A DNA stretch of 64,000 bases from an uncultured Opitutales bacterium (GCA_944390805.1 CALXQW010000029.1:62001-126000), one strand, 5' to 3'; shown: positions 2,364 to 19,007, counted from the first letter of the stretch. Program-made: numbers and translations. The notes: generated from the letters alone by a model not told the origin.

Positions 2364-2374
2364 GAGTTCTTACC

Positions 2375-3061
2375 ATGCCGGACAATGAAAAAAATGTTCC
2401 TCCGCTGATAGAATGCGAGAATCTCGATAAAGCCTATTACTTGGGCAAGGAAGAGTTGCTTGTTCTAAAGCAGGTAAATTTGAAGATATACAAGGGCGAA
2501 TACATGTCTATAATGGGTTCTTCAGGGTCGGGCAAGAGTACCCTCATGAACATAATAGGCTTTTTAGACCGCCCAACAAGGGGTGTTTATCGGCTTAACG
2601 GCAAGGATGTAACAAATCTTAGCGACGACGAGGAATCTATCATAAGGGGGCGCGAGATAGGTTTTGTCTATCAGACTTTCAATCTTCTTCCGCGCAATAC
2701 TGCCTACGAGAATGTTGCTCTGCCTTTGTTCTATCAGAATAGGCCAGCCGACAGGAATCTTATAATGCAGGCGCTAGAAACTGTAGGCATAGCCGACCGC
2801 GCCAGGCACAGGCCAAATGAGCTCTCCGGAGGCCAGAGGCAGAGGGTAGCCATAGCGCGCGCCTTGGTGGCTAGCCCGTCATTAATTCTTGCCGACGAGC
2901 CAACCGGCGCGCTCGACAGCCGCACCAGCGAGGAGATAATGGAGCTTTTTACGCGCCTTAACGACAAAGGCGTAACGGTTATAATAGTCACGCACGATCC
3001 GGAAGTTGCGCACAAGACGCGCAGGGTTGTGCGCATAAAGGACGGAAGGATTACCGAATGA
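2375..3061 (+). CDS. MacB/LolD-type ABC transporter ATP-binding protein
   Basis: A stand-alone nucleotide-binding subunit of 228 residues. Walker A GSSGSGKS is at 48-55, the Q-loop glutamine at 100, the signature LSGGQ at 150-154, Walker B ILADEP at 171-176 and the switch histidine at 207. The short length, the YQxFNLLP segment after the Q-loop and the DEPTGALD sequence are typical of the MacB/LolD/FtsE branch (type VII ABC systems), which move substrates out of the inner leaflet or periplasm instead of pumping through the membrane. Its partner permease is the FtsX-like protein at 4301-5512; in classical MacB these two are fused. The stop overlaps the next ATG (ATGA at 3058-3061), so translation is probably coupled. 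Confidence 0.93.
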   Translation: MPDNEKNVPPLIECENLDKAYYLGKEELLVLKQVNLKIYKGEYMSIMGSSGSGKSTLMNIIGFLDRPTRGVYRLNGKDVTNLSDDEESIIRGREIGFVYQTFNLLPRNTAYENVALPLFYQNRPADRNLIMQALETVGIADRARHRPNELSGGQRQRVAIARALVASPSLILADEPTGALDSRTSEEIMELFTRLNDKGVTVIIVTHDPEVAHKTRRVVRIKDGRITE

Positions 3062-4317
3062 ATTCATGGAGAATTTCATTGTTTTTTTTGGCGTTAGCAG
3101 CATCTGCGTTTCAGGCGCTTGCGGCTGGAGACGACATAGAGCTTGTATCTGTGCAACCGCAGTTTGAGAATGTTGATGTTGTGATGAGGGCCAGCGGTGT
3201 ACTTGATTCATCTAAGTCTATAAACATAAATGCACCCAGAACGCGCTATCCTAGAAAGCTTGTTACTATAGTTGATGAGGGCACCCTTGTTAAGAAGGGA
3301 GATGTTCTAGCAACTTTCGATACCTCAATGATGGAAGAGCGGCTTGAAACTTTGGAATATTCAGGTCTTCACGCCAAGTACAAAGACACGGAGATGTCTT
3401 TTCAGATAAGCGTAAACGAGAGGGTTGCCACCTACAAGAGCAAGGTTGAAAATGAAAAGATATCAAAGATAACGTATGACTCCATGGAGTTTGCTCCTGA
3501 GATGGAGCGCAAAAAGGCTTTGATACGGTTAAATCAGGCTTCGGCTGACGTAAAGATAGCTGAAAACCGCATACGCCAAGAGGAGCAGCGCCGCGACATA
3601 CAACTTAGGAACATACAGGACCAGATAGACCAGAACAGGCGCGACATAGAAAAACTAAAGGCGGACATAGACAGTTTTACAGTCAAGGCGCCGTCGGAAG
3701 GTATAGTTGTGTATCCTAAGATAAAAATATCCGGCGCGGAGCGCAAGGTGCAGATAGGAGACAGCCTCTATTGGGACCAGCTATTTCTAACCATACCCAA
3801 TCTTTTCGAGATGGTGGCTAGAGTTGAGGTTGACGAGAAGGACATACGCAGGATAAAGCTCGGACAGAAGTGCCGCATAATGCTGGAGGCGTTTAAGGAC
3901 GCGTCGTTTACGGGCGAGGTTTCAAAGATAGAGCGCCTTGCTCAGATAAAGAGCAACAATCCGTATGTTAAGATATTCAATGTTGACATAAAGATAAACG
4001 AGCGCGACTTGGACAAGCTTCGTCCGGGTATGAACGCCCGCGCGGAGATACTCACAAACAGGTTTGAGAGCGCCGCAACAATACCGCTTGACTTCATTCT
4101 GCGAGATGGCGGCACATACTACATATGCGCTTTTAAGGACGGCGCTATAGTTAGGGAAGACGTTGAGCTTCTAGACTTCACAGATTTCAAGGCCGTGCTG
4201 AAATCCGCCCCCAAGCTTGCTCCAGTAAAGCCAACTCCGCAGGTGAGAAAGGCTCTTGAAGGCGGACAGAAGAATCTAAAACCAAAGTTCATTCCATACG
4301 ATGCTCAAAACGGTTAA
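3058..4317 (+). CDS. HlyD/MacA-family membrane fusion protein (first of three)
   Basis: A periplasmic adaptor of 419 residues that would link the ABC permease to the TolC-like channel. Residues 1-22 are a signal peptide. A half-lipoyl segment with VDEGTLVKKGDVLATFD is followed by a long charged coiled coil (about residues 95-205, rich in R, Q, E, D and I), then the second half-lipoyl segment FTVKAPSEGIVVYPKI, and beta-barrel and membrane-proximal domains with the LRPGMNARAEI element typical of MacA/HlyD. It starts inside the ATPase stop (ATGA) and its last 17 bases overlap the permease gene, so it belongs to the core transporter. Of the three adaptor genes here it is the one placed between ATPase and permease. 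Confidence 0.87.
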   Translation: MNSWRISLFFLALAASAFQALAAGDDIELVSVQPQFENVDVVMRASGVLDSSKSININAPRTRYPRKLVTIVDEGTLVKKGDVLATFDTSMMEERLETLEYSGLHAKYKDTEMSFQISVNERVATYKSKVENEKISKITYDSMEFAPEMERKKALIRLNQASADVKIAENRIRQEEQRRDIQLRNIQDQIDQNRRDIEKLKADIDSFTVKAPSEGIVVYPKIKISGAERKVQIGDSLYWDQLFLTIPNLFEMVARVEVDEKDIRRIKLGQKCRIMLEAFKDASFTGEVSKIERLAQIKSNNPYVKIFNVDIKINERDLDKLRPGMNARAEILTNRFESAATIPLDFILRDGGTYYICAFKDGAIVREDVELLDFTDFKAVLKSAPKLAPVKPTPQVRKALEGGQKNLKPKFIPYDAQNG

Positions 4318-5512
4318 ATTTCTGAAGTATCTGCGCATGTCTTTGCGCAGTCTGCTCGACCACAAATTGCGCAGTTTTCTTACCGTGCTGGGCATAATAT
4401 TTGGTGTCTCGGCTGTTATAGCCATGACTGCAATAGGGGAGGGCGCCAAGAGGAAGGCTCTAAAGGGCATACAGGAGATGGGCATAAACAATGTGTTTGT
4501 ATCCGATATGCCCCAGGTTAGGCGCGATGCGTTTGAAAAGGGGGCGTATGTATCCGACGGCATGAGCCTTTCCGACATTGAGTTTATACAGCTGAGCATA
4601 AGCGAGATTACCCGCGCGTCTCCGCTGAAGAAAAAGGAGCTTTTTGTGCAGTCTGAATCTTTCAACGGAGCCATGGAGGTCACCGGCACAAATGGCAATT
4701 TTTTTGAGATGCTAGGTCTTTCTGCTGAAAGCGGCAGGCTCTTTTCTGCTCCGGACGAGGAAAACGTTCCGAAGGTTTGTGTGCTTGGCTCTCTGGCTGC
4801 CCAGAGAATGTTTAAGCAAAGCAGGGCTCTCGGATCTTTCATACGCATAAACGACAGGCATTTTAAGGTTGTTGGAATACTATCTGAAAAGCCTGGATAC
4901 GATAACGGCGTGTATCTGCTTTGGAACGAGCCTCTTTTGAGCGAGACTCTCGGTGCGTTTGAATCTCCCCTTTCCGGCGCAATTTTTTACATAGACTCAA
5001 TTCCGTCTATAAGGGCGGTGTCGGAGTTTATCGCCAAGATACTCAAGCGCAGGCACAGCGGCCTTGACGACTTTGAAATGATAGTTCCCGAAGCCCAGCT
5101 TAGGCAGGCCGAAAACACCCAGAACTTGTTCAACTCCATAATGCTTTTAATAACGAGCATATCTTTGATTGTTGGCGGAATAGGAATAATGAACATAATG
5201 CTTGCATCTGTGCTCGAGCGTACCAAAGAGATAGGCATACGCAGAGGTATGGGCGCCACAAAGCTCGATATCCGCCAGCAGTTTCTTGCCGAGGCCGTTG
5301 TGCTCACAAGCGCAGGCGGAGTAATTGGAATAGTAGTTGGGCTGGTTCTAACTTTGATAATAAAATTGGCGACTGGTTGGGATATGCCCGTTCCGCTTGG
5401 GGCGGTTGCGCTTTCATTTTGTTTTTCCGTTCTGATAGGCGTTGTTTTTGGATATTATCCGGCGAAAAACGCTTCTGAGATGAATCCGATAGACGCGCTT
5501 AGGTACGAGTAG
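4301..5512 (+). CDS. MacB/FtsX-like ABC transporter permease
   Basis: 403 residues. One membrane helix near the N terminus (about 24-44, RSFLTVLGIIFGVSAVIAM) is followed by a large periplasmic MacB_PCD-like domain, then an FtsX domain of three helices from about residue 280 to the end. In the last part ERTKEIGIRRGMGA is the conserved coupling motif of this family, and the C terminus NPIDALRYE is also typical. Unlike E. coli MacB the ATPase is a separate gene (2375-3061). The gene starts within the end of the adaptor gene and is followed after 13 bases by a second adaptor. Substrate cannot be read from the sequence; known MacB systems export macrolides, peptides and lipoproteins or lipids. Confidence 0.92.
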   Translation: MLKTVKFLKYLRMSLRSLLDHKLRSFLTVLGIIFGVSAVIAMTAIGEGAKRKALKGIQEMGINNVFVSDMPQVRRDAFEKGAYVSDGMSLSDIEFIQLSISEITRASPLKKKELFVQSESFNGAMEVTGTNGNFFEMLGLSAESGRLFSAPDEENVPKVCVLGSLAAQRMFKQSRALGSFIRINDRHFKVVGILSEKPGYDNGVYLLWNEPLLSETLGAFESPLSGAIFYIDSIPSIRAVSEFIAKILKRRHSGLDDFEMIVPEAQLRQAENTQNLFNSIMLLITSISLIVGGIGIMNIMLASVLERTKEIGIRRGMGATKLDIRQQFLAEAVVLTSAGGVIGIVVGLVLTLIIKLATGWDMPVPLGAVALSFCFSVLIGVVFGYYPAKNASEMNPIDALRYE

Positions 5513-5525
5513 ATATAAGAATGTC

Positions 5526-6740
5526 ATGGGAAAACTTCTTGCAGTGCTGCTTGTTTTAGCCGCCGGTTTTTTTGCGGCGAGGGCGCTGTTTACCCATTCG
5601 GGAGGGGGGTATGCCTCGGCTAATTTCTCTCCAATCGCCAAGGCGGCTTCTACAATGGAGGCTTTCGGCAATGTAGACACATTTAAGTTCAGCGTTTTGC
5701 GCGCGCCCGACAGCAGATTCTCGCGCCAGATAGTGTGGCTTAAGGAGGAGGGGGCAGAGGTCTCTAAGGGGGAGCTTGTTGCAAAGTTCGATGCTTCCGA
5801 TATAGCTTTTTATCTGGAAGAATTGGCAATCCGCACACAATCTTTCATAGAGGATAGGGCCGCGTTTGATTTGGCCTGGGATACAACCATGGAGACGTCG
5901 GAAAATTCCGTATCCATGCAGATAGAGACTGTCGCCCTTCAGGACTTGGACGTTGACCAGAAAAAGTACCATGCCGCCCTTGTGCGCAAGATGGCGCAGA
6001 TAAGCGCAAACAACCAGCGCGGATATTTGGGAGCGTTGCAATCGCAAAAAGACAGGCTCGCGCAGCAGCGCAAGATAGCAGAGGGGTACCAGAACGACAA
6101 GATGGAGCGCCATAAGAAGAACATAAAAAAAGCCGAGGACCTTATAAGCCTTTACGATATCCGCGCTCCGTACGATTCCGTAATTAGCTATCCGCAAATA
6201 TATATAGCCGGAATACTCAAGAAAGCGGAGCAGGGCGACAGCCTTGTACAACTTCAGGAGTTTGCCCGCCTGCCAGATTTCTCCTCAAAATGCGTGGTTT
6301 TGCGCATGCGCGAGCACGGCATAAAAAGCCTTAGGAAGGGGCAGAAGGTTGAATTTTACGCAAAAGCAGTTCCGGGAGTAAAGTTTACAGGAAAGATAAA
6401 GAGCTTTTCGGCAACGCCCACAGACGACATTTCTGGGGAGGAGTCCCGCAGGTATTTTGAGGCCAACGTTGAACTGGATAAATCTGCCAATGTCTCCTCT
6501 CTAATGCCGGGCATGACGGTTTCTGCGCGGATATTTCTTGGGGAATATGAGAATGTGTATGCCATACCCGTAGATTATGTGTCGTCTTCGGGCGGGAAGA
6601 TGAGTGTGGAGATTCTGTCGGCCGACGGCGCGCGCAGAAAAATTGAGGTGTCGGCTACGGCTTCAGACGAAAATTTTGTTTATATTTTGGCTTCGGAGCT
6701 TGGCGGAAAAGAAATAAAACTTGTGCGTTTTTCTGAATGA
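5526..6740 (+). CDS. HlyD-like membrane fusion protein (second of three)
   Basis: 404 residues with an N-terminal hydrophobic anchor or signal (about 3-22). It has the adaptor layout: first half-lipoyl segment with KEEGAEVSKGELVAKFD, a long helical region of about 130 residues rich in Q, K, E and A, second half-lipoyl segment YDIRAPYDSVISYPQI, then barrel domains with LMPGMTVSARIFLGEY. It is clearly related in layout to the adaptors at 3058-4317 and 6737-7954 but only weakly similar in sequence, so the copies are old or separately acquired. It lies 13 bases after the permease and overlaps the third adaptor by ATGA. It may form a mixed adaptor ring with the others or serve a different substrate form. 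Confidence 0.8.
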   Translation: MGKLLAVLLVLAAGFFAARALFTHSGGGYASANFSPIAKAASTMEAFGNVDTFKFSVLRAPDSRFSRQIVWLKEEGAEVSKGELVAKFDASDIAFYLEELAIRTQSFIEDRAAFDLAWDTTMETSENSVSMQIETVALQDLDVDQKKYHAALVRKMAQISANNQRGYLGALQSQKDRLAQQRKIAEGYQNDKMERHKKNIKKAEDLISLYDIRAPYDSVISYPQIYIAGILKKAEQGDSLVQLQEFARLPDFSSKCVVLRMREHGIKSLRKGQKVEFYAKAVPGVKFTGKIKSFSATPTDDISGEESRRYFEANVELDKSANVSSLMPGMTVSARIFLGEYENVYAIPVDYVSSSGGKMSVEILSADGARRKIEVSATASDENFVYILASELGGKEIKLVRFSE

Positions 6741-7954
6741 AGAAGTTTATTGCATTTACAGGCATTTGCCTGGCGATTGCCGCCGGGGCGTTTTTTGCGC
6801 TTCGGGAGGGAAGTGTGCCTTGTGCAAGTTTTGTTCCTCAGAAGGGAGACTTTACAGAGACAGTCAGCATGGCGGGAGTTATGGAAGCCATGTATTATGT
6901 GGGCATACGTTCGCCGTCGTCCCCGTACGAAAAACAGTTAACATATCTTCCGGCTGAGGGGACTTTTGTAAAAAAAGGAGATATAATTGCGCGTTTTGAT
7001 GTAAGTCCTGTGCTTGATGCCATAGAGCTCAAGGAGGAGAACATGTATTCCAGCCAGTTTGATCTTGAGAATCTCGAGACTGAATGGGATATGTCGGAAT
7101 ACGAGATGAGCGTGGATATAGCGGCGGCAAGAAGTGAACTTGGCCTGTACTATTCGGACACGCAGAGCCTGAAGTTTTACGAGTCTATGCGTTCGCAGAT
7201 GGCTGATTTGCAATATTCGTCGGCGCGCTCGCAATACAACGCATCGAGGGTAAAGCGCGACGGCTCAAAGCGCATGAATGAAGACCGCATAAAGCGCCAT
7301 AAAGGAATATTGCGTCACCACGAATACCGCATATTCCGCGATGAAACCTACCTTGAAGACTACGTTTTGCGCGCTCCGTATGATTCCATGGTAATTTTGC
7401 CCTACAAATTGATAGACAACCGTTGGCGTCAGTCGGAAGTTGGAGATTTTCTCGCCCGCGGCATGGAGTTTATGCGCCTGCCAGATTTCTCAACAATGGG
7501 ACTGACGTTGAAAATAGAGCAGGCTCTGATAAAGAATATAGGCATGGGTGAGGAGGTCCATTTTAGAATCTTGTCTTATCCGTCGTATCTTTTTAAGGGG
7601 AAGATAGATTCCATATCGCAGCTTGCCTCAGAGGATAAATTTCAGGAGCACAAAAAAGTTTTTGAGGTGCGCGTTAAGCTCGACGCGGCAACTCCCGATG
7701 CCCAGAGAAAGATTCTTCTTCCCGGAATGGTAGCAACTGCCAGGGTTCCCGTTTCTAAATCTGGCGGATTGTGGCGCATTCCAAAAGATTTTATATACGA
7801 GAAAAATGGAAAACCTTTTGTTTTGGCCAGGCAGAAAGACTCAAAAATTCTTGAATGCAGCGCAAAGATTTCTGCGGAGGGGGTTGACTGGTTTTACCTC
7901 GATTCCAAGGAGAATCCGTGGATAGAAAACGCTGGGGAAATTATAGCAAAATAA
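6737..7954 (+). CDS. HlyD-like membrane fusion protein (third of three)
   Basis: 405 residues, last gene of the efflux operon, starting in the ATGA overlap with the preceding adaptor. An N-terminal hydrophobic segment (3-23) is followed by PAEGTFVKKGDIIARFD (first half-lipoyl segment), a charged helical hairpin (about 95-205), YVLRAPYDSMVILPYKL (second half-lipoyl segment) and a barrel domain ending with LLPGMVATARVPV. The phrases LRAPYDS and LPDFST are shared in similar form with the second adaptor, so these two are closer to each other than to the first. No strong terminator is visible after the stop. Confidence 0.8.
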   Translation: MKKFIAFTGICLAIAAGAFFALREGSVPCASFVPQKGDFTETVSMAGVMEAMYYVGIRSPSSPYEKQLTYLPAEGTFVKKGDIIARFDVSPVLDAIELKEENMYSSQFDLENLETEWDMSEYEMSVDIAAARSELGLYYSDTQSLKFYESMRSQMADLQYSSARSQYNASRVKRDGSKRMNEDRIKRHKGILRHHEYRIFRDETYLEDYVLRAPYDSMVILPYKLIDNRWRQSEVGDFLARGMEFMRLPDFSTMGLTLKIEQALIKNIGMGEEVHFRILSYPSYLFKGKIDSISQLASEDKFQEHKKVFEVRVKLDAATPDAQRKILLPGMVATARVPVSKSGGLWRIPKDFIYEKNGKPFVLARQKDSKILECSAKISAEGVDWFYLDSKENPWIENAGEIIAK

Positions 7955-8239: not shown

Positions 8240-9424
8240 TTAAGAATTTTTTGCATTTGCATTTTTAAGAAGCCATGCCGCGGCTCCGCCACTTTCAGTT
8301 GGAGCGGATAGTATGCGTTTTAGCTGTTCGGCATCTGCTGCTGCCTCAGCTCGGGCCGACGGATTTTCTATACAATGCCTAATGCGTTTTGCCAGAGCTG
8401 AAGGCTTTGCGGCAAATTGTATGTATTCTGGTAGCGAAGATCCCTCAAGCAATATGTTGGATATTCCAAGATACGATATGCTAACTATGGGGCGTGCCGC
8501 CAAATATGTAAATATGTTTGCCTTGTAGACTATGGCCGCTGGTATTCCGGCAAGCGCGCAGTTTAAAGACATAGTTCCAGAACTCATAAGCGCTGTCTTT
8601 GCCCTTATAGGCGCGGCAGAAGAATCTGGAATTAATGAAACCTTCCCGTTTAAATCTGGAAACTTTTTTAAAATCTTTTCAAGTACGGCTTTTATAGCAT
8701 TGCTCGGATATGGCACCACGGCTTTCTCATCTCCCAATAACCTTAGGGTCTTTAACATTATTGGAAATATCCTGCCAACAGCCGCCTTACGGCTGCCAGG
8801 TAAAAATAGAAGGGGGCCGTCTTTGTTGTATTCAACCGGCGCAGTATGTTCTGAATCGAGAAAAGGATGCCCCACAAACTCCGCCTTTAAGGAAGTGTCG
8901 GCATAGCATGACGTCTCGAAAGGAAATATGACAGCAAGAGAGTCTAAAGTGTCCGCCATCTTGAAGCGCCTGCCAGCCTTCCATGCCCATATCTGAGGGC
9001 TTATATAATATGCCGCGCGCACATTGCCCCCGCCTTTCAAACTTATTCCGCGCTCTTTTAGCATCTTTGCAAGATGCAGGTTGAAGCCGGGATAATCTAC
9101 AAAACATACAGTCTTTGGCCTGTATGCATCTATCCATGCGGTGATTCTGTCGGCGAGAACCTTGAAAAATTTGTAGTTCTTTAAAACCTCAAACAAGCCA
9201 ACTACGGAAAAACCCGTCATGTCAAATAACAGTTGAGCTCCGGCCTCCTTCAGAGATTCGCCTCCAAATGCACATACGCGCTTTGCAGGATCCATGGCAA
9301 GAGCACGACGCAACATTCTTGCGGCCTGCTGGTCGCCGGAATGCTCGCCGGCTATTATTAGAATATCGCACTCTCCGTGTTCCGGCGGCGGAAAAGAGGC
9401 TGGTATTGTTCGGCTATCGGGCAT
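8240..9424 (-). CDS. lpxB: Lipid-A-disaccharide synthase
   Basis: 394 residues, normal LpxB length. The enzyme joins UDP-2,3-diacylglucosamine and lipid X to make the lipid A disaccharide on the inner membrane, so the organism makes LPS. Landmarks: AGEHSGD at 25-31, FVDYPGFN at 108-115, ISPQIWAWKAGR at 141-152, EFVGHPFLD at 182-190, FLPGSRKAAV, and SSGTMSLNCALAGIP in the C-terminal half. In the last motif most LpxB proteins have Glu after SGTxxL, while this one has Asn, which may be a lineage variant. The first 17 residues before the core are an extra tail. The ATG overlaps the end of the upstream oxidoreductase by 11 bases, so the two are translated together. Confidence 0.93.
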   Translation of the reverse strand: MPDSRTIPASFPPPEHGECDILIIAGEHSGDQQAARMLRRALAMDPAKRVCAFGGESLKEAGAQLLFDMTGFSVVGLFEVLKNYKFFKVLADRITAWIDAYRPKTVCFVDYPGFNLHLAKMLKERGISLKGGGNVRAAYYISPQIWAWKAGRRFKMADTLDSLAVIFPFETSCYADTSLKAEFVGHPFLDSEHTAPVEYNKDGPLLFLPGSRKAAVGRIFPIMLKTLRLLGDEKAVVPYPSNAIKAVLEKILKKFPDLNGKVSLIPDSSAAPIRAKTALMSSGTMSLNCALAGIPAAIVYKANIFTYLAARPIVSISYLGISNILLEGSSLPEYIQFAAKPSALAKRIRHCIENPSARAEAAADAEQLKRILSAPTESGGAAAWLLKNANAKNS

Positions 9425-10361
9425 TTTTCATCATGGCGCCTATCTGCCTGGTTATCTCAAGGGCAACCTCCAAGGCGCGCAGCCCGAGCCTTGCGTCCAC
9501 CTTTGGATCGTGGTGGTTTATCACGCAGTCTGCAAAACTGCCAAGCTCGGCCTTTAAAGGCTCCTGCTTTTGCATAGGAACTTCTATCCTCTCCACTGCT
9601 CCGTCAACAACCTTAACCACATGCCCGCTTTGATTCATCAAATCCAAAGACATGTACCCGCCGGGTTGGAATATTCTAATCTCCCTGAGCTTCTTTAAGC
9701 TAACCCTGCTTACATTTAAGTTCGCAACACAGCCGTTCTCAAAAACTATGCGGGCATTTCCTATGTCTTCCCTGCTGCTTATTACATTTACACCAACGGC
9801 CTCTATCTTCTTTACGGGAGAGGCGGCAAGCTTTAAGACTATGCCTATGTCGTGAATCATCAGATCTAGTACGACTCCCACTTCTGTTCCTCGCGGATTA
9901 AATGGCGCAAGACGGTCGGCGGTTATAAATTTAGGATTCTTAACATGTCCTTCCATGAATCCCATTACAGGATTGAAGTGCTCTATATGCCCAACCTGTA
10001 TTACAAGATTATGAGCTTTTGCCTCGGCTATCATTGCTTCGGCTTCTTCGGTTGTTGTGCAAAACGGCTTCTCTACCAACAGATGGCAGTTTTGCCTGAG
10101 GAGAGGCACCGCAACTTGCGCGTGCTTGTCTGTGGGTACCACAACGCTGACCGCCTCGGCCGCGTTCCCAAGCTCTTCGAGCGAGTCAAACGCCTTGCAG
10201 CCGAACTTCGAGGCTATCTCTTCGGCGCGCTCCCTATTTGGATCGTACACGCCGACAAGCTCCGTTTGTTCCAATTCAGAATAAATCCTTGCGTGGTGCT
10301 GGCCAAGATATCCAACGCCCGCAACGCCGCATAAAAGTTTGCCGTTTTTCATTATCGACAA
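9414..10361 (-). CDS. Gfo/Idh/MocA-family oxidoreductase, GnnA-like, coupled to lpxB
   Basis: 315 residues: an N-terminal Rossmann fold with GVAGVGYLGQHHA near 12-24 and the sugar-dehydrogenase EKP motif (LLVEKPFCTT), then an alpha/beta substrate domain with HIEHFNP and LAPFNPRGTEVGVVLDLMIHD. The HFNP and LDLMIHD phrases are those of oxidoreductases that sit in lipid A gene clusters. GnnA of that group oxidises the 3-OH of UDP-GlcNAc before transamination by GnnB to give amide-linked lipid A. No GnnB-like aminotransferase is in the window, so the substrate is uncertain. I start at a TTG (10361) because AGGG lies five bases before it; an ATG at 10352 is the alternative. Overlap with lpxB supports a role in lipid A. 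Confidence 0.82.
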   Translation of the reverse strand: MSIMKNGKLLCGVAGVGYLGQHHARIYSELEQTELVGVYDPNRERAEEIASKFGCKAFDSLEELGNAAEAVSVVVPTDKHAQVAVPLLRQNCHLLVEKPFCTTTEEAEAMIAEAKAHNLVIQVGHIEHFNPVMGFMEGHVKNPKFITADRLAPFNPRGTEVGVVLDLMIHDIGIVLKLAASPVKKIEAVGVNVISSREDIGNARIVFENGCVANLNVSRVSLKKLREIRIFQPGGYMSLDLMNQSGHVVKVVDGAVERIEVPMQKQEPLKAELGSFADCVINHHDPKVDARLGLRALEVALEITRQIGAMMKNAR

Positions 10362-10545: not shown

Positions 10546-13458
10546 TTACTTATCAGGGGTTGAGCTACCTATGTCTTTTGCTTCGCTCTTTTCCTTTGTA
10601 GAAATATCTTTTTCAAAGGACTCCATAAGTTTTTCTTCAGAATTAAATATATTAAGAGGTCTTAAGCTTACACCTATGTCTGGATCTTCTATCTTTCCTT
10701 TTAGATTAACTTCAAATACGTTCATGAATGGATCCATCACAGATATTATTCGAGACAGCACCGGAGTCTCCACCGATCCGAACGGAGAGACCAACAATTT
10801 AGCCTTTATGTCTCCTTTTATAAACTCATAGTTTGCAAGCCCTGATATCTTTATTTTTGGGCCAGTTATAAGCAAATTATCAAAGATAACAGATCCGTCT
10901 GCTACCGAGCAATTTGCTGTGGCTTTTGTTATGTCGAAGGTTCCTATTCCAGCCCCGAATCTATTTAATGTGCGCGATATTGCCCCAAGAAGATTCAATT
11001 CTCCCAATTTTGGGCTGAGAACCTCAGCGGTGCCCGTTCCTTTTAGTTTTTCAGTGTCGAACAGAGCTCCGGATATTTTCATATTTCCGGAAAGTTTTGC
11101 GTCTTCCGCTCCTTGAAAAGCTCCTCTTGCACCCTTTATATTTTGCTTATTTAACCTGTCTTTTGCTTCTTGGGCGTCTTCCTGAAGTATCTGCTCTGGG
11201 CTCTTTCCTATATCGGAGAGCGTATCGAGAAATTCTCCCATGTCCATATTTTGGCAGTTCAAAGATAAATCTAGCGTGGCGTTTTTTCTGTCGTACAGAT
11301 TGTCTATCTTTACCTCTCCGAATACCTCTCCGTTGCAGATTCTCGCCTCTATGTTTTTTGCGCATATAAACCCGCCTGTCGAATAGGCGTCGAAAGAGGT
11401 GTTTTCGAAATCCATCGCATCTAAGCACATCTTCCCATGCGAGTTTATCCGCACCTGATATATGTCTGACTGTGCACTTTTGTCCATGGGGTTAAACAAA
11501 AGCGCATTCACACTGGCAGACGGCCTTCCCGCAAAAGATGCAACCTTGAAAACTTCTTCTACCTCCTCGCCGGCAAGCGATATTATCTCATTTTGGGTTA
11601 GATCGAAATTGCCGCTTAGAGTTGTGTTCTTAAAGTGGGTGATTCCCTTGTCGGCGTACAGCCATTGAAGATCGAACTTTGCGCGGCTTTCGCCGTTTTC
11701 TATTTTGGCGTCTAATAGGGCTATTAGCCTGGGGTTTACCAACACATAAGTTGAGAATTTCTCAAATAGCGAACCATTATATCTTGCCTTAACAGCGTTT
11801 ACATTTGCAAAACACCAGATGTATTCAGGCTCTCCCCAGCGTCCCTCTACAAATACGTCGGCATAAGGCTTATCTCCGAGAAAATCTATGCGCTTGAATA
11901 TCCTTGTCCACCAGGGCGCCATTATGCGCTTTATGCTCATGGGCACAAGATTGCCTCTTAACGCAAAAGAATAGCGCTTGTCCGACAAGTTCTGGTATAC
12001 GTCTCCGCCTATGCTCCAGCCGTCGAAGGTCTTTATAAGCGCGTTGTTTGCTTTAAATTCCATTGAGTCGGTATCGAACTCGAGGCAGGCCGACATCTCC
12101 TCTATTGGTATGTATAGAAATGAGCAGTCTTGCGAGAATATCTGTGTGTCTATTCTGACTCTCGGATTTCTTACACTCTGCTTAAACTCGATATCCGCAG
12201 ACCCCATTATAGTCATTGGCTCTTTAAATTCAGTCCCCTTAAGCTCGTCTATTTTTGTGAAAAACGGATTTTTCAATATTGCGTTTACGTCCGCAAGGGC
12301 GCTGAACTTTAAGTTTATGCTGTCTTGAGAGCCCGATATGTCAGCCTGCCACGTGCCACGCCCGTGCCTGAAAAAAAGCTGAATGCCATCTGATATGTTT
12401 TTTGCGGAGAACGAATCTTTCAGGGCTGTTATATCTGAAATTCTCCCGTGGGACGTCTTAATTTCCCTCGCTGTGAAAGATGCTTTCCTCGCTTCAAGAG
12501 AATCTTCCAATGGACTTTGCGGATTCCAGCTGATGTTTGCATGAAAATCTGTTCCGCCAACAGTGAATGTTTCATCTTTTATAGGGAGAATTACTTTTTC
12601 GGCTCTAATTCTTGCGCTTGCCTTCGTTGGTTCTTTTGCGCTTTCTATTTTTAGGTCTGCACGCGGCTCTATAATTTCAACTGCAAATTTCTCCGATGAA
12701 TGAGAGTATTTATCCGCGAGAAATGTCGCATTGACAAAAGGAGAATTCCCCTGCGTATCTATCTGAATTTCCACTGCCGGATTTTCAAACTCTTCAAAAA
12801 GCTGCCCTGCTTGTCTTAATGTATCGCAGACGGAATCCCATGCCTGTCTATGAGTCTTTGTCTTATCCTGTTTTCTTTCGGAAATTCCAAGTTTTTTTGC
12901 TGCAATACCAGCCTTTTCTATTTCTGCAATTTTCGCTCCGCCTCTTATTCTCAATTTCCCAATTCTTGCGCTTGCGCGGCTAAAGAGAAAGTCTCCATTT
13001 CTTCTTGCGAGAACTAAATTTATCTCATCGGCAACTTCTTTTTGATTATTGCCCTCTGAAGGTTTTACTTTTGCGTTTTTTACGGATATCTTTTTGGGCT
13101 CTATTATTCCATGAAAGAGTTTTTTTAGATCTATACCCGCCTCTATTCTTTCTGCCTCGAGAACAGATATTGTATCTCCGGCAAATCCGGCGGAAACTCC
13201 ATTTAATACTACACTTCCCTCTAGGCTTATGTGAGCCTCTTTTATTTTGAAGAAAAATCCGTTTTTATCGGCGTAATCGTACGCGTAATTTTTTAGAAAC
13301 TCCGGAACAGGCAACGTCTTTCCTGCCAGAAAAAGCCCTAACCATACCACCTGCAAAATAAACAGCACAAACAAAAGCATATTTACCGCGCAGCGCATCG
13401 CGCGCGGCAAAATTCCGCCTCTGCGAGACGGATCCCGATGCTTTCCCTTGAAAATCAC
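10546..13458 (-). CDS. Large AsmA-like envelope protein
   Basis: 970 residues with one membrane helix near the N terminus (about 25-46), after a basic leader, so the rest lies in the periplasm. The body is a long series of beta-strand-like segments with little repeat identity, and the last third (about 700-930) resembles the AsmA-like C-terminal region, with phrases such as LKGTGTAEVLSPKLGELNLLG and a FGSVETPVLSRI segment. AsmA/YhdP/TamB proteins form long hydrophobic grooves that carry phospholipids across the periplasm. The C-terminal 40 residues are charged and probably flexible. It begins with GTG inside the stop of the DUF4340 gene (GTGA), so it is the last gene of the ABC operon. Exact subfamily unknown. 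Confidence 0.75.
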   Translation of the reverse strand: MIFKGKHRDPSRRGGILPRAMRCAVNMLLFVLFILQVVWLGLFLAGKTLPVPEFLKNYAYDYADKNGFFFKIKEAHISLEGSVVLNGVSAGFAGDTISVLEAERIEAGIDLKKLFHGIIEPKKISVKNAKVKPSEGNNQKEVADEINLVLARRNGDFLFSRASARIGKLRIRGGAKIAEIEKAGIAAKKLGISERKQDKTKTHRQAWDSVCDTLRQAGQLFEEFENPAVEIQIDTQGNSPFVNATFLADKYSHSSEKFAVEIIEPRADLKIESAKEPTKASARIRAEKVILPIKDETFTVGGTDFHANISWNPQSPLEDSLEARKASFTAREIKTSHGRISDITALKDSFSAKNISDGIQLFFRHGRGTWQADISGSQDSINLKFSALADVNAILKNPFFTKIDELKGTEFKEPMTIMGSADIEFKQSVRNPRVRIDTQIFSQDCSFLYIPIEEMSACLEFDTDSMEFKANNALIKTFDGWSIGGDVYQNLSDKRYSFALRGNLVPMSIKRIMAPWWTRIFKRIDFLGDKPYADVFVEGRWGEPEYIWCFANVNAVKARYNGSLFEKFSTYVLVNPRLIALLDAKIENGESRAKFDLQWLYADKGITHFKNTTLSGNFDLTQNEIISLAGEEVEEVFKVASFAGRPSASVNALLFNPMDKSAQSDIYQVRINSHGKMCLDAMDFENTSFDAYSTGGFICAKNIEARICNGEVFGEVKIDNLYDRKNATLDLSLNCQNMDMGEFLDTLSDIGKSPEQILQEDAQEAKDRLNKQNIKGARGAFQGAEDAKLSGNMKISGALFDTEKLKGTGTAEVLSPKLGELNLLGAISRTLNRFGAGIGTFDITKATANCSVADGSVIFDNLLITGPKIKISGLANYEFIKGDIKAKLLVSPFGSVETPVLSRIISVMDPFMNVFEVNLKGKIEDPDIGVSLRPLNIFNSEEKLMESFEKDISTKEKSEAKDIGSSTPDK

Positions 13459-15323
13459 TTATTTTCTTCGGGCATTTTCGGTTTCGGCGCCGCTTTTGCC
13501 TTTTCTATTGTTTCAGTTTCAAATTCAAAAAGGGCATTTATAAGTTTTTGAGGTATGGCAAATACGTTTGGACATTCTGAGAATCCGCCGTATTGCTCCG
13601 TTCCTCCGGTTCTGTCCGAAAGAAAATATGTACATGTTTGGCTTATAGTTTTTCCTGTCCCCGGCAGACTTGCTGTTATCTCCAGCGCCCAACTCCATTT
13701 TACAAGTTTTCCATCGGCCGATTTGAATCCTTCCTTGCCAAATGCGAAAGGTTCAAATTCTTGCGCAACAAAACTTCTTCCATAGCCGAATATTACTTCA
13801 GCTGCGGCCTTCTTGCGCTTGTCGGCAATTTCTGCTATCTGCTTTGCAATACTTTCAGGCTGTTCCGCAGACAGCTCAAAAACCGCCTTTCCGGATTTTA
13901 AATCTACAAGCCTAATTGCCGATATTGTTGCCTTTTCCGGAAGCGTATTTATTATTCTTGAACGGTAGTCGAGCTGGTCCGACGGGAACGCCTTCAATAT
14001 TCCTGTTGGTATTCCGTAAACCGTGGAACCGCCTTCCAATGCCGCATATGCAAGAGTTGCCGCCCCGTATTTGTAAGTTGAACCTACAAGAAGAGTTCTT
14101 TCTGTCTTGTCGTCGAAAGACAGCGTTATCTTCAACGACGGATTCTCAAGTCCGTAAGATTTGAAATCTACCTTTGCGTTGTCCGATACAAAATCTCTTG
14201 CAGACAAATTAGACAGAGTTGCCAAAAGTGTGCTCATCTTTACCGAGTCCGCCGGAATGTTTCCTCCCGAACCTAATAGTTCCCATTTGCCGTCTTTGAG
14301 GCTGCGCAGCTTAACAGACGCATCTTTCGTATCTACGTCCATTCCCGAAACCGATGGAATATCGAACTTCAAGAATCTCCTATCTCTCAACGAAGTTTTC
14401 AGAGATTCAAGATTTTTAAACGAATCCGCATCGAGCGTAAACAAAGTTGGATTATCCTCAAGCTTTGCATAGACTAAATTTGAGTCTGGCACTGGGGATC
14501 CAATCAGAAGCGTCTGCCTGCGGTTTATACCCTGAAGCGTTATGGACAGAGGAAATGCTCCTATGTCGAAGTTCGCCGCAGCCTTGCTCTCCGACACAAA
14601 AGACCTTGCCGACAACGCGCAAAGCGAACTTATAAAGCCTTCCACCGCCTTATTGTTGGCTTCTGCCGCCACGGGAGACTCGAACTTCCAGCTTGGGCCG
14701 TCTTTGACCAGGCCTATTCTCATGAATTTTGAACCAGAGTTTCCGGAAGATTGCGGTATTCTTATAGATATAGATCCAACTTCAAACCTGGGTATCTCAA
14801 ATACATTTTGCGACCTTAACCTGTCTATATCTATCGCCAGGCTTTCCACAAGCTCTCTGTCTACCACTATTATCTTATCTAAGGCCTCGTCGAGCATGTA
14901 TATCCTATTTCCTATCGGCGCGGCTTTTCCTACTTTCAATGTGGTTGTTTTTTTGTCGTTGCCGAACTTAAATGTAAAGCTTGGGGAATCCAATCCGTAA
15001 TCTGCCAGAGTCTGCCCGTGCGATTTTATCTCCGATACAGAAAAGCTCGTCTGCCTGTCGAGGTATTCCAGCTGGCTCTTTATTCTGTTTACAGCAAAGA
15101 AATTTGCCGGCCACGATATGGGCTTTACTATGCGCCAGCGGTTGTTTTCAAGGCGTATCAGCCTGGGAGAATCTAGGCTTTTCCCCTCTACTTGCAGCAT
15201 GTTGAAATCTGCAAGGGGAGCTGCCGCCGCCGCGCTCTGTTTTGGCGAGCGCTCAAGTATCCATATTATGGCAAATACGACAATATTTAAAAGAAGAAGA
15301 ACTATTGTAAGTTTGTTTCTCAT
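13455..15323 (-). CDS. DUF4340-domain membrane-anchored periplasmic protein
   Basis: 622 residues. A single N-terminal helix (about 5-23) anchors a periplasmic region built of repeated units of similar layout: a strand with (L)YGL-xx-PS, then KTTTLKVGKAAPIGNRIYM or ERTLLVGSTYKYGAATLAY, then a YAALEG or Y-A-K-LED strand. At least three such units are visible (around residues 105-150, 265-300 and 395-430), which matches DUF4340 proteins. These accompany GldG-like ABC systems in many bacteria; their biochemical role is not established. It sits 20 bases after the GldG-like gene and overlaps the AsmA-like gene by four bases. The C terminus is rich in Lys, Ala and Pro. Confidence 0.8.
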   Translation of the reverse strand: MRNKLTIVLLLLNIVVFAIIWILERSPKQSAAAAAPLADFNMLQVEGKSLDSPRLIRLENNRWRIVKPISWPANFFAVNRIKSQLEYLDRQTSFSVSEIKSHGQTLADYGLDSPSFTFKFGNDKKTTTLKVGKAAPIGNRIYMLDEALDKIIVVDRELVESLAIDIDRLRSQNVFEIPRFEVGSISIRIPQSSGNSGSKFMRIGLVKDGPSWKFESPVAAEANNKAVEGFISSLCALSARSFVSESKAAANFDIGAFPLSITLQGINRRQTLLIGSPVPDSNLVYAKLEDNPTLFTLDADSFKNLESLKTSLRDRRFLKFDIPSVSGMDVDTKDASVKLRSLKDGKWELLGSGGNIPADSVKMSTLLATLSNLSARDFVSDNAKVDFKSYGLENPSLKITLSFDDKTERTLLVGSTYKYGAATLAYAALEGGSTVYGIPTGILKAFPSDQLDYRSRIINTLPEKATISAIRLVDLKSGKAVFELSAEQPESIAKQIAEIADKRKKAAAEVIFGYGRSFVAQEFEPFAFGKEGFKSADGKLVKWSWALEITASLPGTGKTISQTCTYFLSDRTGGTEQYGGFSECPNVFAIPQKLINALFEFETETIEKAKAAPKPKMPEENK

Positions 15324-15343
15324 TTTTTTTACGCGCCTTCCTC

Positions 15344-16822
15344 CTATTTTCTTACGAAATAAACCAGTATGCCTATTAGGCCAACTCCAAGCGGCAACAA
15401 GCTGAACTTTAATGCCAAATTCCTCAGGTCAGACAGGCTTAGCGTTAGGGAATACGTCTGCGTTTTGCGCGGCGCTATGTTCAAGGTGACATTATCGTCA
15501 AACATCCAATTTACGGTGTTTACCGCAAGTTTGGCGTTGCCGAGCCGGCCGAATCTTTTGTTTGCAATAAAGTTGTCGTCCCCAAAAACCGCCACACGGC
15601 CTCCTGGTATGGTAAGTCCCAATTCCGACCCTCCGCTGCGGCTTGCAACCATGGCAAGCGGCAATGGGCCACGCAGGTCTGTGCTTTCGTCGTATTTTTG
15701 CGCGCCACCCTGCGCGTAGGATTTCTCTCCCCAGCTTGTCTCCGCGCTGAGTATTATTGGAAAGAGTTTCAAGTTGTCGTCAACCGGAGCTCCCATATCT
15801 TCCATCACCGGCCGTACAGAGCCAAATTGCACCGGCAGCTGCGCGTCTATCAGATATTTTACTATCGGGTGCGGATTCTGCGGGAAACGCCTTGCTATCA
15901 GGTCTCCGTCTGAAGACTCATAGTCTGATGAGGTGTCGAGCACGAGCATGTCGCTGCTCATTATTCCCCACTCAAACAGCACCTCCTCCAGGCCTTGTAA
16001 GGAGCCAAGATCTAAAAATATTGCCGCCTTGCCTTTTGCCGTGGTAAGATACTTTCTTATTGCGTCTATTTCCCGCGGCAGAAAGGCAGCCTGAGGAGAG
16101 GCTATTATAAGAAGCCCAGCATCTTCGGGAACCTGCTTTGAAACGCTTAAGTCCAAACTTTCTACATCGTAGTTCAGATCCTTTAAATACGCAGCAAATT
16201 CCGAAAGCCCCCTCGATGGCGACGTATCTGTTGGAGACATCTCTCCATGCCCCTTTAGAAAATATATTTTTTTATCGTTGGGGCTAGTTACGGAAATTAT
16301 CGCGCCTGTAATTGCCTGCTCTCCCTTAAATGCCCTGTCTTCCGCTGATATCTCGTACAAGTCTGGAGAGTACAGTTTCTTGAACTTTCCTCCCGCGGAT
16401 ATTATCACGCAAGAGTCTATATCTTTTCCGAATTTTGTTGACAGTGTCTCCGCCAAACGCGACTCAAAATGCGGATCCACAATCCTCAGCTTTATCCTGC
16501 CATTTTTCCCAAAAGAAGACTCATACTCGTATCTTCTTAGCAATGCAGTAATCTGCCTGTACTCCTGTTCTCCTCTTGTGTTGCGCTCTCCCTTTGTGAA
16601 GGTTGAATATATCTCTACGTCCTCCGGCAGATTCAAGATTTGCGCGGCGCTCTCCGGCGACAGCGAGTTTGCCTTGTTCTCGGAAAGGTCGTACTTGTAG
16701 TAGTGGCGGGCCGCAAGAAAGTTCAATGCAACCACAAGCAACAGCCCAAGCACTATCTGGCACGCCAGATTTATTTTCCTTACGCGCCTTACAAAACTAA
16801 AATCTTCAAATCTGCGCTTCAC
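15344..16822 (-). CDS. GldG-like ABC transporter auxiliary protein
   Basis: 492 residues with a helix near 20-40 and another at the extreme C terminus (about 468-488), so the middle part is periplasmic. The middle resembles the GldG/ABC-auxiliary domain: YYKYDLSENKANSLSP after the first helix, VEIYSTFTKGE, YFLKGHGEMSP near the centre and AVFGDDNFIANKRFG near the end. In Bacteroidota GldG works with GldA and GldF in gliding motility; in other phyla the same set exists without gliding and its role is unknown. It starts with GTG inside the permease stop (GTGA), which ties it to the ABC-2 pair. Confidence 0.83.
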   Translation of the reverse strand: MKRRFEDFSFVRRVRKINLACQIVLGLLLVVALNFLAARHYYKYDLSENKANSLSPESAAQILNLPEDVEIYSTFTKGERNTRGEQEYRQITALLRRYEYESSFGKNGRIKLRIVDPHFESRLAETLSTKFGKDIDSCVIISAGGKFKKLYSPDLYEISAEDRAFKGEQAITGAIISVTSPNDKKIYFLKGHGEMSPTDTSPSRGLSEFAAYLKDLNYDVESLDLSVSKQVPEDAGLLIIASPQAAFLPREIDAIRKYLTTAKGKAAIFLDLGSLQGLEEVLFEWGIMSSDMLVLDTSSDYESSDGDLIARRFPQNPHPIVKYLIDAQLPVQFGSVRPVMEDMGAPVDDNLKLFPIILSAETSWGEKSYAQGGAQKYDESTDLRGPLPLAMVASRSGGSELGLTIPGGRVAVFGDDNFIANKRFGRLGNAKLAVNTVNWMFDDNVTLNIAPRKTQTYSLTLSLSDLRNLALKFSLLPLGVGLIGILVYFVRK

Positions 16823-17586
16823 GATTTTGCCTCCGTTATGAGCGATGTCAGCGCCAAAAGAAGAACTGTTGCGCTAAAATACAAAAAGAACGGCCTTGTG
16901 TCGAATATCGACGCGCTGAAATCCTCAAGCTGCCTGAATGTTTGCAGATAGTCTGCCGCTCCCGCCATGTAGCTTCCCCATGCGCTTTCCGTTTCGGGCG
17001 CAACTTTCATTATCAGCCCAGCGCCTACTATCGCAAGAAATAGTATGCAGAAACTAAGCATGCCCGCAACCAGAGTGCTGCGCGTCAGCGAGCTTGAAAA
17101 TATCCCTATTGCAACATACATAGCTCCGCTTGCAAATATGAAAGAATATCCCGTAAACATTTGCGGCCATGAGAATATTCTATCGTCCGATGCCGCCTGC
17201 GGCAGGCTAAAAAACAATATGAGCGGATACGCCAAAGTAAGCGCCCAAAGAAAAATATAAAATATATAGCATGCCAGATACTTTGATAAGACAACCTGCC
17301 ATGCAGAAACCGGTGTGCTCATCAGAGCCTCAAGAGTTCCCATTCTACGTTCTTCCGCAAGAGAACGCATTGTAAGCAGCGGAACCATGAAAAGTACAGG
17401 CACCCAAAATGTAGATAGGAACATTTCCATCGGAGATATTGCCGTAGTCGACGAGCTTATCTCCTCGACGCTAAGAAGATACATCAGCGCCATAAAACTT
17501 AAAAATAGAAATGCCGCAACATACGTTGATGGAGCTATAAACATCAACTGTATCTGATGGCTTAAAAGAGCTTTGAATCTTCCCAT
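16819..17586 (-). CDS. ABC-2-type transporter permease (GldF-like)
   Basis: 255 residues with six predicted membrane helices (around 17-37, 57-77, 100-125, 135-160, 170-195 and 230-248). The segment RSLAEERRMGTLEALMSTPVS between helices two and three is the typical ABC-2 coupling loop of GldF/NosY-type permeases. It is only two bases after the ATPase gene and overlaps the GldG-like gene by four bases. Together with its neighbours it forms the membrane core of an ABC system whose cargo cannot be told from sequence. Confidence 0.88.
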   Translation of the reverse strand: MGRFKALLSHQIQLMFIAPSTYVAAFLFLSFMALMYLLSVEEISSSTTAISPMEMFLSTFWVPVLFMVPLLTMRSLAEERRMGTLEALMSTPVSAWQVVLSKYLACYIFYIFLWALTLAYPLILFFSLPQAASDDRIFSWPQMFTGYSFIFASGAMYVAIGIFSSSLTRSTLVAGMLSFCILFLAIVGAGLIMKVAPETESAWGSYMAGAADYLQTFRQLEDFSASIFDTRPFFLYFSATVLLLALTSLITEAKS

Positions 17587-17588
17587 AA

Positions 17589-18602
17589 CTACTCCTTCGC
17601 GGGCTTTTTCATAACCTGTTCCCAGCTGCGCCGAGTTGCCGCCATAAACACCTCTTCAAGGCTGGGCTTGTCCAATGACACTTCCCTAAGAGCACATTCC
17701 GGAGTTGATGAAAATTCCTCCACAAGCGTCTGTCCGGCGTTTTCTCCAAGGGGAGTCTTTACCATGTATCTATAATATCCATCTGCGCCAGAAGTATCCT
17801 CTTCTAAGGAAAAGTCTGCCTTTGGCAGTACCTTCTTTAGCCTTTCGCCGAATTTCTCCGGAGAAAGCTTCAACGAGACCTTATGCCTGTTCATAGGCAA
17901 GAATTCGTTCCTAAGAGCCTCTGGCGAGCCGCTTGCAACAACGCTGCCTTGGTTTATTATTATGGCTCTGTCGCATACAAGCTCTATCTCTGGCAGTATA
18001 TGAGAGCTTATTATAACCGCCATTCTTCCTCGCAGCGATTTTATAAGCTCTCTTATGGCTATTATCTGGTGCGGGTCCAAACCTATGGTGGGCTCGTCCA
18101 TTATTATAAGGTCAGGCTCTGCAAGTATGGCGTCGGCAATGCCAACCCTCTGCCTGAATCCTTTCGACAGATTCCCTATTATCTTGCGCGCAGCCTTGTG
18201 CCTTAATTGACATATGTCCATAACTTCGTCCACGCGCTCGTCCAGCCGCCTGCCCGATAGCCCCTTAAGGCGCGCCCTATAACGCAGGTATTCAAGCACC
18301 CTTACGTCTTCGGGCAAAGGATTGTTCTCCGGCATAAAGCCTATGTGCCGTTTGGCTTTGTCCGGATAGAGGGCAACGCTTATTCCGCACACGTCGACAG
18401 TGCCGCTCGTAGCCTGGCTAAGACCTGCTATTATGCGCATTGTAGTGCTCTTGCCGGCTCCGTTTGGCCCAAGAAATCCAAGTATCTCCCCTTTGGCAAC
18501 CCTGAAGGAGATATTGTCTATGGCTTTTACCGCGCCGTACGATTTCGTCAATCTGCGAACAACCAACGCGCTCGACGCCTGCGTATCGGAATCGTCTTGC
18601 AT
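17589..18602 (-). CDS. ABC transporter ATP-binding protein (GldA/NatA-type)
   Basis: 337 residues. Walker A GPNGAGKS is at 45-52, the signature appears as NLSKGFRQRVGIA around 144-156, Walker B LIIMDEPTIGLD at 165-176, followed by a switch histidine in SSHILPE. After the ATPase core an extra domain of about 110 residues follows, as in GldA and other ABC-2 exporters. The short spacing to the permease (two bases) makes them a pair. First gene of the ABC/GldG/DUF4340/AsmA operon; the acyl carrier protein gene lies 42 bases upstream on the same strand and could be co-transcribed. Confidence 0.92.
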   Translation of the reverse strand: MQDDSDTQASSALVVRRLTKSYGAVKAIDNISFRVAKGEILGFLGPNGAGKSTTMRIIAGLSQATSGTVDVCGISVALYPDKAKRHIGFMPENNPLPEDVRVLEYLRYRARLKGLSGRRLDERVDEVMDICQLRHKAARKIIGNLSKGFRQRVGIADAILAEPDLIIMDEPTIGLDPHQIIAIRELIKSLRGRMAVIISSHILPEIELVCDRAIIINQGSVVASGSPEALRNEFLPMNRHKVSLKLSPEKFGERLKKVLPKADFSLEEDTSGADGYYRYMVKTPLGENAGQTLVEEFSSTPECALREVSLDKPSLEEVFMAATRRSWEQVMKKPAKE

Positions 18603-18644
18603 CTTCTTATCTGACTCTACCGCCGAAATCTTCCTTCTGGCGGC

Positions 18645-19007
18645 TTATTCGTTGGCCTTTTTATTTATGTAATTTTTGATATCGCCAAAGGTCTTCAGCT
18701 TCATGGCCTCGTCTGTATCTATGGAAATTCCAATGGAGTCTTCCACCATCAAGACAACTTCCATCATTGTAAGAGAGTCAAGCCCAAGCTCCTGCGCCAG
18801 AACCATATCGTCCGACGGATTCTTTAATTTGCCGCGCATAGCCGGATCCGCAAAGCGCTCCAGAATGCCCAGAACTATCACATTTATCTTTGAGGCGTCG
18901 CCCGTCTTTCTGAATTCTACTGCCGCCTCTACTGCTTCCGGCGAGCAACGTTTCATATTTTCGCGCAAATTTTCCTCGTCTTGGGGGGTAAATTCTCTTG
19001 TATTCAT
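18645..19007 (-). CDS. Acyl carrier protein with N-terminal extension
   Basis: 120 residues, longer than the usual 75-80. The carrier domain occupies about 40-120 with the phosphopantetheine site LGLDSLTMMEVV, Ser78 being the attachment residue. The helix after it (MMEVVLMVEDSIGISI) and the DIKNYI ending are typical. The first 40 residues (acidic/basic, helical) are extra. It is not next to fatty acid synthesis genes but just upstream of the ABC/AsmA operon and divergent from rsmE. It may be a dedicated carrier for a lipid-modifying enzyme; an acyl-ACP-synthetase-like gene is elsewhere in the window (40753-42405), though no link between them is shown. Confidence 0.85.
   Translation of the reverse strand: MNTREFTPQDEENLRENMKRCSPEAVEAAVEFRKTGDASKINVIVLGILERFADPAMRGKLKNPSDDMVLAQELGLDSLTMMEVVLMVEDSIGISIDTDEAMKLKTFGDIKNYINKKANE

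Follow-up and report, generated by a model that had tools for sequence, protein, structure and literature searches.

A conserved Verrucomicrobiota operon links a Gld-type ABC exporter and a DUF4340 protein to an AsmA-like protein

A 64,000-nucleotide stretch of DNA from an uncultured Opitutales bacterium (hereafter the window, within which positions are counted; the genome, referred to as G000, has 2.3 Mb and belongs to the order Opitutales) carries an operon in which the genes of an ATP-binding cassette (ABC) ATPase, an ABC-2 permease, a GldG-like protein and a DUF4340 protein are followed by the gene of a large AsmA-like protein. The five genes stand in this order in the window, and the order is conserved in its relatives. 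We consider it an even chance that their products form one envelope machine, in which ATP would power the transfer of lipid out of the inner membrane and onto an AsmA-like bridge; physical contact between the parts, the lipid substrate, the outward direction and the ATP coupling are what we infer. Somewhat more tentatively, the Gld-type exporter with its GldG-like and DUF4340 proteins may be a dedicated ATP-driven loader of the AsmA-like bridge, encoded by an ancient Verrucomicrobiota operon that was split secondarily in some orders. An ABC-AsmA operon at the level of a phylum is of interest because the inner-membrane extractor for AsmA-like proteins has been stated to be unknown (PMC10900882). 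The same source treats as open by which route AsmA-like bridges receive phospholipids from the inner membrane, and whether ATP is the driving force (PMC10900882).

Arrangement of the operon

The operon lies entirely on the minus strand and comprises acp and the genes for the ATPase, the permease, the GldG-like, the DUF4340 and the AsmA-like proteins. The gene of the GldA-like ATPase (17589-18602, 337 amino acids (aa); PF00005) is followed after 2 bases by that of the GldF-like ABC-2 permease (16819-17586, 255 aa; PF12698/PF12679), which shares a 4-base GTGA overlap (16819-16822) with the gene of the GldG-like auxiliary protein (15344-16822, 492 aa). The next gap, of 20 bases, leads to the DUF4340 gene (13455-15323, 622 aa), and a second 4-base GTGA overlap (13455-13458) joins this gene to the one encoding the AsmA-like (YhdP-type) protein (10546-13458, 970 aa). 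On the upstream side, acp (18645-19007, 120 aa) encodes an acyl carrier protein (ACP) and is separated from the ATPase gene by 42 bases. It leads the genes on the minus strand here, since the divergent neighbour, an RsmE-like gene recognised by eye, begins 62 bases away at 19070. The coordinates, gaps and overlaps in the initial annotation of this DNA were exact to the base, and its assignments of the ABC, GldG-like, DUF4340 and carrier-protein genes were upheld by profile matches in Pfam and NCBIfam. A promoter scan gave 16 sites compared with 14.1 in shuffled sequences, i.e. no excess. A terminator-like hairpin of 11 pairs (13382-13411, minus strand) is located about 50 bases into the AsmA-like frame and may be due to chance or act as an attenuator.

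Conservation of the gene order

We inspected 80 named Opitutales loci that had been picked solely by GldG similarity. The AsmA-like gene directly follows the DUF4340 gene in 75 of them, four end at the end of a contig, and one (L155) is unlinked; hence 75 of the 76 judgeable loci are linked. Between the two genes lie 22 bases at the median, and 60 bases or fewer in 65 of 74 loci. Within the window's family, all 15 fetched loci have the order acp-ATPase-permease-gldG-DUF4340-asmA, many of them also with gfo and lpxB downstream. In the other Opitutales families, the AsmA-like gene adjoins the DUF4340 gene in 11 of the 16 genomes that have both. A same-genus relative is available (CALXLX010000033.1, "uncultured Opitutales bacterium"). 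Compared with the same-genus genome G001, protein identity along the operon drops steeply, from 92% for GldG to 80% for DUF4340 and 54% for the AsmA-like protein.

For a survey of the phylum, AsmA-like and DUF4340 profiles were run on 289 Verrucomicrobiota genomes, and best-match coordinates were transcribed by hand for the 77 genomes outside Opitutales with both genes listed. The two best matches are no more than 6 kb apart in 45 of these genomes, far apart on one contig in five, and on different contigs in 27 (some of them at contig ends). Linkage is seen in 20 of 31 families outside the order, counts that are not independent of phylogeny. The 20 loci fetched from outside the order have ATPase, permease, gldG, DUF4340 and asmA in constant order, and the stop of one gene and the start of the next mostly overlap or lie within 35 bases; an overlapping open frame masks one gene call each in L192 and L194. 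The surroundings are variable. In some Opitutales the flanks are nadC, birA, coaX and a biotin-carrier gene (probable accBC in L076/L079/L083), and in other families they are htrA-type protease genes, prmA or a radical-SAM gene. With dozens of genomes repeating it, the order exceeds what chance would give. That the flanks are exchanged around an intact core argues for a functional unit, and says nothing of how the parts cooperate. The initial annotation had staked its proposal on the linkage of the AsmA-like gene to the ABC genes in relatives; this linkage is found throughout most of Opitutales and in the majority of the other families, and is lacking in several other orders and families. Long frames that looked like DUF4340-AsmA gene fusions in G041 and G248 turned out to be overlapping frames in GC-rich DNA, and the fusions were rejected.

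The AsmA-like protein

The 970-aa protein of the window has no match in either the Pfam or the NCBIfam library, including the TamB profile PF04357. Its orthologues are more informative. Among 51 of them, the Pfam YhdP family was matched in 32 (weakly, with a best E value of 2e-10), TamB in four, and AsmA in one. The YhdP matches fall in the C-terminal third and, for orthologues scanned singly, stay under the cut-off of 46 bits, and one orthologue reaches 25.4 bits for TamB with respect to a cut-off of 22.4. Alignment by hhalign placed the family profile at the very C-terminal end of E. coli YhdP (P 3e-4), compared with P 0.03 for TamB and P 0.54 for DUF4340 as an unrelated control. At the level of sequence, the family appears remotely related to the YhdP type. 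The AsmA-like label of the initial annotation accordingly finds no profile match in the window protein itself, and draws on the orthologues, on the alignment to the YhdP C-terminus and on the predicted structure.

The AlphaFold2 model, built with 51 sequences, has a mean predicted local distance difference test score (pLDDT) of 81.8 and a predicted template modelling score (pTM) of 0.62. A single N-terminal membrane helix (residues 16-44) is followed by 44 strands of at least six residues. Hydropathy alternates along the strands well beyond shuffling (z = 8.1), one face being 66% hydrophobic and 12.5% charged, and the other 32% and 34%, respectively. The model thus predicts an anchor and a long amphipathic beta-groove, as an AsmA-type lipid groove would show, with the caveat that amphipathic strands are also found in other beta proteins. 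A search by sequence against solved structures found no relative of the family. A Trp-Trp motif (residues 516-517) is invariant in all 68 members from the order, and the same pattern was not found in the AsmA-like proteins of other families. The protein resembles YhdP, TamB and YdbH of E. coli and P. aeruginosa in the N-terminal helix and the long hydrophobic beta-groove (both predicted here) and in the C-terminal similarity to YhdP; it differs from them in being shorter (970 aa compared with 1,266 for YhdP and 1,259 for TamB) and in scoring under the Pfam YhdP cut-off.

We also inspected the genome for other lipid routes. G000 has LptF and LptG, as two genes, on other contigs, and one MCE protein on another contig. 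A profile search, which can miss divergent members, gave no TamB match in G000 and one among 18 searched genomes. Another large AsmA-like protein (about 1,160 aa) is encoded at G000:C16:5213-8683 and is conserved in the family. The idea that the operon's AsmA-like protein is the only one of G000 was rejected on this ground, and with the second one present the operon's protein is not the sole candidate for a bridge. At L215:3207-6689, the gene of the second AsmA-like protein is flanked on one side by a panB-like gene and on the other by one for a membrane protein with a resemblance to glycosyltransferases.

The exporter and its putative periplasmic subunits

The ATPase has intact motifs (Walker A GPNGAGKST, signature LSKGFRQR and Walker B LIIMDEP). 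Its best NCBIfam match is TIGR03522 (GldA) with 266 bits, under the cut-off of 402.6. The permease matches ABC-2 families and not LptF/G in the Pfam scan, has six membrane segments predicted by hydropathy, and scores 92.5 bits with TIGR03518 (GldF), under the cut-off of 288.5. The GldG-like protein passes PF09822 (ABC_transp_aux; 64.1 bits, gathering score 34.7), also matches DUF7088 and DUF4350, and matches TIGR03521 (GldG) weakly, with 48.6 bits and under the cut-off of 389.85. Because the three equivalog cut-offs are missed, we refer to these proteins as Gld-like and not as GldAFG. Hydropathy predicts membrane segments at residues 19-37 and 469-487 of the GldG-like protein, with a periplasmic domain in between. 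In three loci of distant families (L192, L208 and L214), open frames of 586-798 aa occupy the position of gldG and no separate permease is called; these are possible permease-GldG fusions.

GldA-GldF-GldG of Flavobacterium consists likewise of an ABC ATPase, an ABC-2 permease and an auxiliary membrane protein, and the profile similarity is weak but clear; the published GldA signature LSKGYRQR resembles that of the window's ATPase. What sets the present system apart, besides scores far under the equivalog cut-offs, is the attachment of a DUF4340 and an AsmA-like gene.

The DUF4340 protein matches PF14238 in three stretches (E 5e-55; 186.9 bits, cut-off 25). An N-terminal membrane helix and a large periplasmic domain are predicted by hydropathy and by an AlphaFold2 model with a mean pLDDT of 86.9. 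None of the 14 control genomes gave a DUF4340 match. A sequence comparison with solved structures gave one marginal match, the short chain 4r80 (E 0.15), and Foldseek gave weak partial matches, with no convincing fold among those seen (a thioesterase-like one with Z 7.3 over 115 residues at a root mean square deviation of 3.9, and YycH with Z 5.0). A DUF4340 protein of Verrucomicrobium spinosum, not necessarily that of the operon, has an essential region according to transposon sequencing (PMC12283558), a hint at the importance of the system. A literature search, mostly confined to papers outside subscription, found none naming both DUF4340 and GldG.

Proposed mechanism and alternatives

In the proposed machine, the GldA/F-like ABC-2 exporter would spend ATP to extract a lipid from the inner membrane. 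The likeliest substrate would be a glycerophospholipid or a related glycolipid. The GldG-like and DUF4340 proteins would be its membrane-anchored periplasmic subunits, through which the lipid is handed over. The AsmA-like protein, with its N-terminal helix beside the exporter, would receive the lipid, and its hydrophobic beta-groove would conduct the acyl chains over the periplasm to the outer membrane. A lipid path had been suggested in the initial annotation; it appears plausible and fits the groove prediction. Such a scheme, with a beta-groove bridge taking over what an ABC transporter has extracted, would resemble that of the Lpt system (LptBFG-A-C-D), whose LptF and LptG are separate genes in G000. 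The window's AsmA-like gene comes with its own ABC exporter, whereas the proteobacterial YhdP, TamB and YdbH have no known inner-membrane extractor (PMC10900882). The nearest precedent found is the mlaEFD-tolC-tamB operon of Veillonella parvula (Negativicutes), which joins an AsmA-clan gene to an ABC lipid transporter (PMC10665443). That transporter is of the Mla type (MCE) and is thought to be retrograde, opposing TamB (PMC10665443), whereas the present one is of the ABC-2 Gld type with GldG and DUF4340. If the proposal is true, the Gld-type exporter is the inner-membrane energiser that present models of phospholipid export in bacteria lack. The retention of the operon across much of Verrucomicrobiota suggests that it is a concrete, testable candidate for an ATP-fed lipid route to the outer membrane, and gives a possible job to DUF4340 and to GldG-like exporters beyond gliding bacteria.

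Several observations weigh against a single machine. Within the order, G023, G029, G030 and G033 carry the AsmA-like gene elsewhere (in G034 the contig ends), and outside it the families f24, f25 and f28 (other orders of the same class), f46 and f49 hold both genes at separate places. Some distant linked AsmA-like relatives have only 615-664 aa, a length that may not suffice to cross the periplasm. In Foldseek, the AsmA-like model has its top matches in an LptD model and in the beta belts with which apoB-100 binds lipid, which speaks for a lipid groove, but these matches are geometrically weak (template modelling score below 0.25), the likeness being limited to strand arrangement. There is also no ABC gene among the open reading frames listed around the close orthologue of the second AsmA-like protein in G001, and AsmA function may therefore be independent of this exporter. 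The chief rival holds that the exporter and the AsmA-like bridge are separate machines, co-transcribed for dosage and without contact, the exporter moving another envelope molecule and the AsmA-like protein working alone, as is thought for E. coli YhdP. Separate loci for the two parts in several orders, the second AsmA-like gene with no listed ABC neighbour, and flanks of unrelated housekeeping genes that vary by lineage all agree with it. Yet the five-gene order with its overlaps persists in 20 non-Opitutales families despite changing flanks, which is more than usual for mere co-expression, and we regard separate machines as possible, if rather unlikely.

The exporter may instead serve proteins. 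The Gld-type ABC proteins would then be a Lol-like extractor or an FtsEX-like device for outer-membrane lipoproteins or envelope proteins, with the AsmA-like protein aiding insertion in a TamB-like manner rather than carrying bulk lipid. Point mutations in GldA of Flavobacterium lower GldJ and GldK/PorK, loss of GldF destabilises GldK/PorK (PMC9127263), many secreted proteins are lost in gldG mutants (PMC5682007), and two loci from other families have an HtrA-type protease gene next to the operon. These published effects, however, belong to gliding and the type IX secretion system of Bacteroidota, and the genes described here are far under the GldA/F/G equivalog cut-offs; a lipoprotein role is in our judgement improbable. 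More improbable still is an exporter for a special lipid of the window's family: with an unusual acyl chain built by the accessory ACP, the operon would export the finished glycolipid or modify lipid A. Such a role is suggested by acp being adjacent in all 15 fetched loci of the family, frequently along with gfo and lpxB on the downstream side, and by the ACP orthologues of other families, which carry a fused FabA-like domain and of which the one in L098 is encoded beside a ketoacyl synthase and two glycosyltransferases. But the ABC-AsmA core persists outside the family with the ACP at another locus, and hence does not need the ACP.

The acyl carrier protein and neighbouring genes

The ACP passes PF00550 over residues 65-114 (33.9 bits, cut-off 20.8) and has an intact DSL site with the attachment serine. 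The N-terminal extension pointed out in the initial annotation is real, comprises about 50 residues and is kept in orthologues. Membership of the ACP in a conserved system is not borne out: acp adjoins the operon in the family loci and in none of the loci of other families. In those families, the orthologue is encoded at an unrelated locus and makes up the N-terminal half of a fusion with a FabA-like part. We rejected it as a core part and consider it a family-level addition of doubtful role. In four loci of other Opitutales families (L097-L100), the ACP orthologue carries a fused FabA/hotdog-like domain, confirmed by Pfam in L098. There the fusion gene is followed by those of a ketoacyl synthase, a glycosyltransferase resembling monogalactosyldiacylglycerol synthase and a group 1 glycosyltransferase, possibly an undescribed lipid pathway.

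Two flanking genes on the minus strand are conserved in the family and likewise not part of the core. The Gfo/Idh oxidoreductase gene (9414-10361; PF01408) is UDP-GlcNAc 3-dehydrogenase-like and scores 233 bits with NF040723, under the cut-off of 450. The lpxB gene (8240-9424; PF02684) encodes lipid-A-disaccharide synthase and matches TIGR00215 just above the cut-off. The two side by side (8240-10361, minus strand) may indicate a 3-amino sugar in lipid A. An efflux-type cluster lies on the plus strand of the window (771-7954) and encodes an outer membrane efflux protein, an ABC ATPase, an HlyD-like adaptor, a MacB-like permease and a second HlyD-like protein. A third adaptor-like gene was recognised in it by eye, and two to three adaptors for one MacB are unusual.

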